Below, one piece after another: positions 46,089-47,936 of a DNA stretch of 64,000 nucleotides. Where the stretch lies: positions 1,104,501 through 1,168,500 of the forward strand of contig NZ_JYNQ01000001.1 in the NCBI RefSeq assembly GCF_000934685.1, read 5' to 3'. Numbering within the stretch: position 1 is the first letter of the stretch; the number at the start of each line of letters is the position of its first letter. Made by a program: the position numbers and the translations under genes. The DNA is from Lacinutrix sp. Hel_I_90 (GTDB lineage: Bacteria > Bacteroidota > Bacteroidia > Flavobacteriales > Flavobacteriaceae). The notes under the pieces were generated by a model that was not told where the DNA came from, made no database searches, and saw only the letters and a list, made by a program, of their open reading frames with translations.

Positions 46089-46127
46089 AATGATTTTGGT
46101 TGATGATTAAACATACTAAGAGGCCAT

Positions 46128-46157
46128 AAAAAAACGCCTCATATAAATGAGACGTTT
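46128..46157 (-). terminator. Minus-strand terminator beyond the 78-bp array
   Basis: Arms AAACGCCTCAT (46132-46142) and ATGAGACGTTT (46147-46157), loop 4 nt, with a T-tract in the minus direction from the A-run at 46128-46134. The single non-Watson-Crick position is U·G on the minus transcript but C·A on the plus transcript, so the minus strand is the functional one. It would end transcripts that come from the cyclophilin-FKBP gene through the array. Confidence 0.75.
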
Positions 46158-46234
46158 CAAACTTATTTTTGTTACAGATTCTTAAGATTTTGATCAAGAG
46201 TAATCCGCAACTTTTTAAAATAGTGTTCCTTTTT

Positions 46235-46999
46235 ATTTATGACCCCCAGGTGGGTATAAGCGATTCACACATTTTTTTAATAAAAAAAATGGTGCTTATT
46301 ATCTCCTTTAATGAGATACCCACGTGCGTGGGTATAAGCGATTCACACATTTTTTTAATAAAAAAAATGGTGCTTATTATCTCCTTTATTGAGATACCCA
46401 CCTACGTGGGCATAAGCGATTCACGCATTTTTTTAATAAAAAAAATGGTTCTTATTATCTCCTTTATTGAGATACCCACCTACGTGGGCATAAGCGATTC
46501 ACGCATTTTTTTAATAAAAAAAATGGTTCTTATTATCTCCTTTATTGAGATACCCACCTACGTGGGCATAAGCGATTGACACATTTTTTTAATAAAAAAA
46601 ATGGTTCCTACATTCTCTTTTTAATGAGATACCCACCTGCGTGGGTATAAGCGATTCACACATTTTTTTAATAAAAAAAATGGTGCTTATTATCTCCTTT
46701 ATTGAGATACCCACCTACGTGGGCATAAGCGATTCACACATTTTTTTAATAAAAAAAATGGTGCTTATTATCTCCTTTATTGAGATACCCACCTACGTGG
46801 GCATAAGCGATTCACGCATTTTTTTAATAAAAAAAATGGTTCTTATTATCTCCTTTATTGAGATACCCACCTACGTGGGCATAAGCGATTCACACATTTT
46901 TTTAATAAAAAAAATGGTTCTTATTATCTCCTTTATTGAGATACCCACCTACGTGGGCATAAGCGATTCACGCATTTTTTTAATAAAAAAAATGGTTCT
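46235..46999 (-). repeat. Tandem array of ten 78-bp units with two hairpins each
   Basis: Units begin at about 46235 (degenerate first copy), 46313, 46391, 46469, 46547, 46626, 46704, 46782, 46860 and 46938; the spacing is 78 except one 79. Each holds a hairpin ATACCCAC-4 nt-GTGGG(T/C)AT, then GCGATTCAC, a second palindrome CATTTTTTT-AATA-AAAAAAATG and a T-rich tail (TTATTATCTCCTTTATT). Units differ at a few fixed positions. The array ends 4 bp from the stop codon of the cyclophilin-FKBP gene and lies in its probable 3' untranslated region. The core resembles REP-like palindromes, but no transposase is near. An open frame through it is judged non-coding. Confidence 0.95.
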
Positions 47000-47003
47000 C
47001 TGC

Positions 47004-47936
47004 TTACTTTACATTCACAAGCTCAACATCAAATATTAATGTAGCATCCGCTGGAATTACACCTCCTGCTCCTCTAGAACCATAACCTAACTCACTTGGA
47101 ATTACAAATCTTGCTTTGTCACCTACTTTTAATAACGCGACTCCTTCATCCCATCCTGCAATAACTTGTCCCATACCCAAAGCAAAATCAATGGGTGCAT
47201 TACGCTTGTATGAAGAATCGAAAACGGTTCCGTCAGTCAATGCCCCTTTGTAGTGTACAGATACTGTTTTTCCTTTTTCAGCTTTTACACCATCTCCTTT
47301 TTGAATAATTTGGTAACGTAAACCACTTGCTGTTTGCTCAAATCCTGCGGCATATTTTTCAAGCTCTGCTGCTTTTACTGCTTTTTCTTCTTCTATTCTC
47401 TTTTCGCGAGCGCCTTCAAAAGTTCTAAAGGCTTCAATACCATTAAATTTTTCTGCTGCTGCTCCTACTCTTACTATTTCTAAAGTTTCAATTACATCCC
47501 CTTGTGCTATAGCATCTACCACCTCTTGTCCTTCTACCACCTTACCAAAAACAGTGTGATTACCATCTAACCAATCTGTAGCAATATGCGTGATAAAAAA
47601 CTGACTTCCATTAGTTCCCGGTCCAGAATTCGCCATAGATAAAACGCCTGGTCCACTATGCTTTAAATCTGGATGAAATTCGTCATCAAATTTGTAACCA
47701 GGATCTCCCGTTCCCGTACCTTGAGGACAACCACCCTGAATCATAAAATCTGGAATAACTCTGTGGAATTTTAATCCATCATAATATGGCGTTCCTTGTG
47801 GTTTTACTGAATTCTCCATGTTACCTTCAGCTAAAGCAACAAAATTACCTACTGTTCCTGGTGTTTTTTCGAATTCTAAATTAACCAAAATGGTACCTTT
47901 ATTGGTATTGAATTTTGCGTATAAACCGTCTTGCAT
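47004..47936 (-). CDS. Cyclophilin-FKBP fusion peptidyl-prolyl isomerase
   Basis: 310 residues with two PPIase domains. Cyclophilin domain (about 1-160: [39 protein letters not shown]). A helical charged linker follows (about 160-200, [21 protein letters not shown]), then an FKBP domain (about 205-310: [57 protein letters not shown]). No signal peptide, so probably cytoplasmic, acting as a double foldase. Its 3' untranslated region appears to be the 78-bp array. Confidence 0.94.

Follow-up and report, generated by a model that had tools for sequence, protein, structure and literature searches.

The 78-bp tandem array in the window, that is the whole 64,000-nucleotide stretch of Lacinutrix sp. 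Hel_I_90 DNA that was analysed, is a secondary expansion within a genuine and apparently undescribed family of structured repeats that has an unusual link to stop codons. A stop codon is normally regarded as a punctuation mark for the ribosome only; the one studied here is in addition a strand of a predicted helix, in which natural changes from UAA to UGA are matched downstream. We hold with about even confidence that the array is the tandem amplification of a two-hairpin, predicted transcribed 3'-end element of mobile origin which is closed by the stop codon. The original prediction, which had left four options side by side, missed the role of the stop codon, the conserved core and the distribution over the family.

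The array itself is real. Tandem Repeats Finder gave a period of 78 over 46250-46999 with 9.6 copies, 95% matches and a score of 1337, and the unit alignment gave ten cores, in agreement with the ten copies predicted. Its neighbours are also those that had been named: on one side the cyclophilin-FKBP stop codon (47004-47006, minus strand), and on the other an inverted repeat at about 46127-46156 with the shape of a terminator. The features on which the analysis rests are as follows, in window coordinates.

47004-47936, minus strand: gene for a cyclophilin plus FKBP peptidyl-prolyl isomerase (open reading frame; Pfam PF00160 and PF00254), whose stop codon at 47004-47006 is part of the element
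46960-47006, minus strand: core of unit 1, UAAGC-AGAGA-ACC-(A/T hairpin)-GUGAAUC-GCUUA (R2 match, 56 bits; fold of unit 1 by itself, z = -5.2; covariation)
46941-46960, minus strand: second hairpin of unit 1, AUGCCCAC-GUAG-GUGGGUAU, AT-clamped and REP-like, with no CGTC tag (sequence; comparison with PMC3733652)
46250-46999, minus strand: tandem array of the 78-bp unit (Tandem Repeats Finder; unit alignment)
46239-46923, minus strand: units 2-10 as a block (R1 matches; fold)
46860-46923, 46782-46845, 46704-46767 and 46626-46689, minus strand: units 2-5 (R1 matches)
46547-46614, 46469-46532, 46391-46454, 46313-46376 and 46239-46298, minus strand: units 6-10 (R1 matches)
46127-46156, minus strand: inverted repeat of terminator shape, AACGTCTCAT-TTAT-ATGAGGCGTT, with T after it on the minus strand (sequence)

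The inverted repeat at 46127-46156 was absent from the output of a simple terminator scan, and it is kept 3' of the cyclophilin-FKBP gene in relatives.

The array had been described as starting 4 bp from the stop, whereas the TAA at the start of unit 1 is the cyclophilin-FKBP stop codon and is itself the 5' strand of the basal helix of unit 1. From there unit 1 reads TAAGCAGAGAAC, the hairpin CATTTTTTTTATTAAAAAAATG, a bulged C, GTGAATCGCTTA, the second hairpin (as DNA ATGCCCAC-GTAG-GTGGGTAT, its A being shared with the preceding part) and CTC. The two palindromes predicted for each unit do exist, but the full architecture is larger than that: a bulged hairpin that stands on a conserved internal loop and a basal helix is followed by the second hairpin, and the fold of this array places a third hairpin, UAUCUC-AAUAAAG-GAGAUA, in the spacer. 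The general core is UAAGC-AGAGA-RCC-(hairpin)-GYGAAUC-GCUUA, in which UAAGC pairs with GCUUA, and the REP-like second hairpin comes after it. This second hairpin is AT-clamped with a stem of 8-9 bp, a loop of 4-5 nt and the tail CTC (AUUCCGAA-CUUGU-UUCGGAAU is a further example), it is preceded by GCTT or ACTT in intact cores, and some copies do not fit this stem and loop. Measured from the stop codon, the 889-nt region has a fold much stronger than that of its shuffles (z = -14.5).

Units 2-10 differ from unit 1. They are without the UAAGCAGAGA start and in the fold have the basal helix AUAAG/CUUAU instead, they no longer have the AGAGA loop, and in several of them the R-Y pair is broken. One unit is 79 bp long as opposed to the 78-bp period elsewhere in the array, and in the distal unit near 46240 the second hairpin is degenerate. 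One explanation is that the array arose by neutral replication slippage and that the nine copies beyond unit 1 are functionless, which is compatible with a 3'-end element as well as with a mobile hairpin and to which we give somewhat less than an even chance. It agrees with the lack of a complete core in units 2-10, with copy numbers that vary freely among loci and species, and with unit identities of 94% within the source genome and 99% within one relative (G004) as against 83% between the two. Units that are alike within a genome and diverged between genomes are what would be seen after a recent expansion or if the units evolve in concert. What speaks against slippage alone is that arrays recur at particular genes, namely at 6 of 7 ppi loci, 21 of 38 icmF loci and 15 of 26 RDD loci and rarely at dnaK (1 of 14), that a basal helix has been rebuilt in units 2-10, and that the junction ATCT/CAGAGAACC is frequent in arrays and recurs in several genera. 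Behind icmF in one genome (G400, locus L347) several variants of the element make up a higher-order array of about 287 bp.

The array leaves two plus-strand frames open, 46169-46579 and 46641-47039 (136 and 132 codons), with a period of 26 residues, and annotation pipelines may call a protein here, which is probably a spurious ORF. In favour of a plus-strand repeat protein, the 78-bp period keeps a frame open for this length; against it, the frame is broken at the 79-bp unit, conservation follows base pairing, and the units of relatives are 71 or 76 bp long, which refutes a coding repeat; we give this explanation a negligible probability.

The pairing of the stop codon was examined at 137 gene ends of flavobacteria with a recognisable core, the partner bases being left free in the count. 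A TAA stop was opposite TTA in 128 of 132 cases, and a TGA stop was opposite TCA in all five, which are three CMD genes of one genus and the RDD genes of two other genomes. The fifth basal pair was C-G in 121 gene ends and U-A in 12. In 24 cores taken from across phyla, 99% of the cells were paired and 7 of the 12 pairs vary on both sides, with a covariation score of 0.553 as against 0.153 in shuffles and at most 0.1 in slid versions. R in GARCC and Y in GYGAATC change together, as A-U and G-C. The AGAGA/GAAUC loop is nearly invariant, and in the cross-phylum cores this is partly built in, because the pattern used to retrieve them prescribes most loop bases; this bias does not apply to the flavobacterial stop-pairing counts. 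As far as the compared sequences go, a nucleic-acid structure is kept by compensatory change, as is expected of a putative cis-acting 3'-UTR element.

The stems are nearly all Watson-Crick paired. On the sense strand the ratio of G-U to A-C is 23:13 in hairpin 1 and 16:16 in hairpin 2, and this excess is so weak that RNA is not separated from single-stranded DNA by it. The near absence of G-U pairs, together with perfect palindromes in tandem copies, would suit an array that acts as DNA, either as binding sites for a nucleoid protein, as was among the original proposals, or as an attC-type recombination site. We found no support for a DNA-binding array and consider both forms improbable: the sequence of hairpin 1 turns over among loci while its pairing is retained, which is unlike a sequence-specific duplex site, there is no GTTRRRY box of attC, and all flavobacterial copies are oriented with the gene. 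There was no signal when the similarity of hairpin 1 between orthologues was compared with that between other genes, and hence hairpin 1 cannot tell descent from transposition.

In the source genome, searches with the unit and with covariance models found the element at only four gene ends and not as single units scattered in the manner of ordinary REPs. Besides the cyclophilin-FKBP gene, these are the stop codons of a DnaK gene, a gene of the IcmF-type methylmalonyl-CoA mutase family and an RDD-family gene, the last with three copies, of which one is decayed and the others are intact. All 13 genomes of the genus have at least one match. The search of Flavobacteriaceae genomes extended this well beyond the genus, as core model R2 found the element in 77 of 397 genomes and 57 of 237 genera. 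When the class was sampled more broadly (395), it was found solely in Flavobacteriaceae (5 genomes), and a DNA pattern scan also matched a Crocinitomicaceae bin and one labelled Chitinophaga. At all confidently identified Flavobacteriaceae loci that were examined, the element starts precisely with the stop codon of the preceding gene and on that gene's sense strand; a few weak or frame-shifted matches (for example L083, L084 and L127) could not be judged for this. As the models derive from copies anchored at a stop, they favour TAAG. They still found array-internal units without it, so that solitary copies with no such anchor ought to have turned up.

The host genes code for the IcmF-type mutase, RDD, DnaK, cyclophilin-FKBP, a CMD-family protein, an SDF-type symporter, superoxide dismutase, an SQR-like oxidoreductase and a few others, the symporter, SQR and IcmF names being our own reading of the sequences, and they form no obvious regulon. 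Predicted terminators were found 3' of the element at 49 of 89 loci compared to 12 of 89 coding control stretches. Within the genus, the ppi and dnaK loci have the element in intact or in decayed form or not at all, and in many relatives the element is absent or decayed at the same gene. In relatives without it (loci L265, L266 and L267) the dnaK 3' flank has, right after the stop, a TGTC-tagged hairpin with a CCA tail of the CGTC-REP type. The original suggestion of an RNA element in a 3' untranslated region is upheld in part, for unit 1, which is conserved, structured and anchored to the stop codon of several genes across the family, and so is that of a REP-like expansion, as the second hairpin of the unit is similar to CGTC-type REPs.

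Outside Flavobacteriaceae, a cross-phylum pattern of about 45 bits, for which we estimate under one chance hit, found the core in Clostridium, Acetobacterium, Sporomusa, Selenomonadales and Synergistota. These cores are mostly not tied to stop codons, look mobile and may be homologues, transfers or convergent forms. The richest Clostridial genomes have 85-88 copies, and in Clostridium core copies truncate CRISPR repeats. On a Clostridium simiarum contig (L225-L228) about 19 cores lie in CRISPR arrays and cut the repeat GTTGAACCTTAACATGAGATGTATTTAAAT after TATT or CCT; an ORF-poor Clostridium stretch at first taken for rRNA operons holds CRISPR arrays, and the former assignment was dropped. At five loci (L113, L123, L137, L163 and L119) the core follows a 5' tRNA half that ends in the D loop or comes directly after the CCA end of a tRNA, and where it lies behind a 5' half an intact copy of the same tRNA is found downstream. 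Clostridium magnum (L292-L308) has a larger repeated hairpin (..CCAGGGACGTAGCCGCTC..GAGCGGGTAGTCATCGG..) that matched no Rfam family and whose loop contains many of the cores. Eight matches of a looser pattern in viral contigs look like chance matches in coding sequence and were set aside.

Both filled and empty sites, by which a mobile repeat is recognised, were found. A Synergistes bin has clean 54-bp insertions in which one core copy with a 12-nt tail lies inside another (filled loci L314, L315 and L317 within L313-L315 and L317, as against unfilled L321), and within the genus of the source genome the filled and empty dnaK 3' flanks of G000 and G004 differ by a clean block. It could therefore be argued that the element is a selfish, non-autonomous mobile hairpin of REP or MITE type with TAAG as its left end, which spreads via single-stranded DNA or RNA, and that the copies in flavobacteria go back to old insertions which brought in a TAA or overlapped one, and were then inherited and tandemly duplicated. 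The nested insertions, the dnaK flanks, the up to 88 copies in Clostridial genomes, the interrupted CRISPR repeats and the copies behind duplicated tRNA 5' halves all speak for this. Against it, the copies in Flavobacteriaceae keep to one small set of stop codons, found again in dozens of genera, and occur nowhere else, and the paired changes of the stop codon require selection on folding. A target-site duplication, hinted at by the G000/G004 dnaK pair and the tRNA halves, gave no signal over 92 flavobacterial loci, where the likeness of the left to the right flank was on average 6.07 compared to 6.03 between unrelated loci, and a motif scan near the Firmicutes copies found no Y1 transposase or reverse transcriptase. 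We regard the mobile hairpin as a possible but doubtful account of the whole.

The 3'-end element is preferred because of its position at the stop codon, the compensatory changes including that from UAA/UUA to UGA/UCA, the recurrent set of genes and the terminators downstream. We counted against it the many decayed or absent copies, the incomplete units 2-10, the lack of an obvious regulon, the Firmicutes and Synergistota cores that mostly lie off stop codons and the weak G-U excess. A probable way for such an element to act is that UAAGC, made up of the stop codon and two further bases, would pair with GCUUA 30-50 nt downstream and close a hairpin that has a single bulged base and a purine-rich internal loop, AGAGA/GAAUC, with the REP-like hairpin following. 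In the mRNA this fold would form once the stop codon is free of the ribosome, and it could then block 3'-to-5' RNases or dock a protein that recognises the internal loop, so that the proposed role is 3'-end protection or protein binding. Extra copies would be added barriers or sites, or else neutral products of slippage. It is rather unlikely, though worth considering, that this amounts to a translation-gated 3'-end switch, in which ribosome traffic at the stop opens and closes a widespread and uncatalogued RNA module that flavobacterial mRNAs have in common, the related cores of Clostridia and Synergistota having spread as a mobile hairpin. The UAA/UGA swaps are a natural experiment on how stop-codon structure affects termination, mRNA decay or protein binding, and the similar core of the distant Clostridia, where it lies within CRISPR repeats and pieces of tRNA, leads to the question of a very small mobile hairpin.

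Text and sequence-string searches of the open-licence literature found no description of the element. Like Flavo-1 it is a structured motif in Flavobacteriaceae found by comparison, and in Rfam, Flavo-1 included, no family reached the gathering score and none was credible at relaxed thresholds. GTAG-tagged REPs are short palindromic interspersed repeats 3' of genes that are probably transcribed and are associated with RAYT (Y1) transposases. The element resembles them in its short palindromes 3' of genes and its predicted transcription but has no GTAG tag and no Y1 motif near its Firmicutes copies and is fixed at the stop codons of particular genes. With the integron attC it shares an imperfect hairpin at a gene end that can occur in series; unlike attC, it has no RYYYAAC/GTTRRRY boxes (the consensus has GTTCTCT on one strand) and no cassettes between copies. 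The array is unlike CRISPR in that its 78-bp units run head to tail with near-identical and not unique spacers. The closest likeness to the expanded REP that had been proposed is in the second hairpin. CGTC-tagged REP palindromes, reported in Bacteroidetes 3' of genes, have a CGTC (or TGTC/CCTC) tag, an AT-started stem of 8-9 bp, a loop of 4-5 nt and a CCA tail (PMC3733652, 2013). The second hairpin has the same stem length, complementary AT start, loop length and position 3' of genes, but it has CTT before it in place of a CGTC/TGTC tag and its tail is CTC and not CCA. The element also differs from them in occurring in tandem and in few copies, and in being coupled to a separate and more conserved core hairpin at the stop codon.
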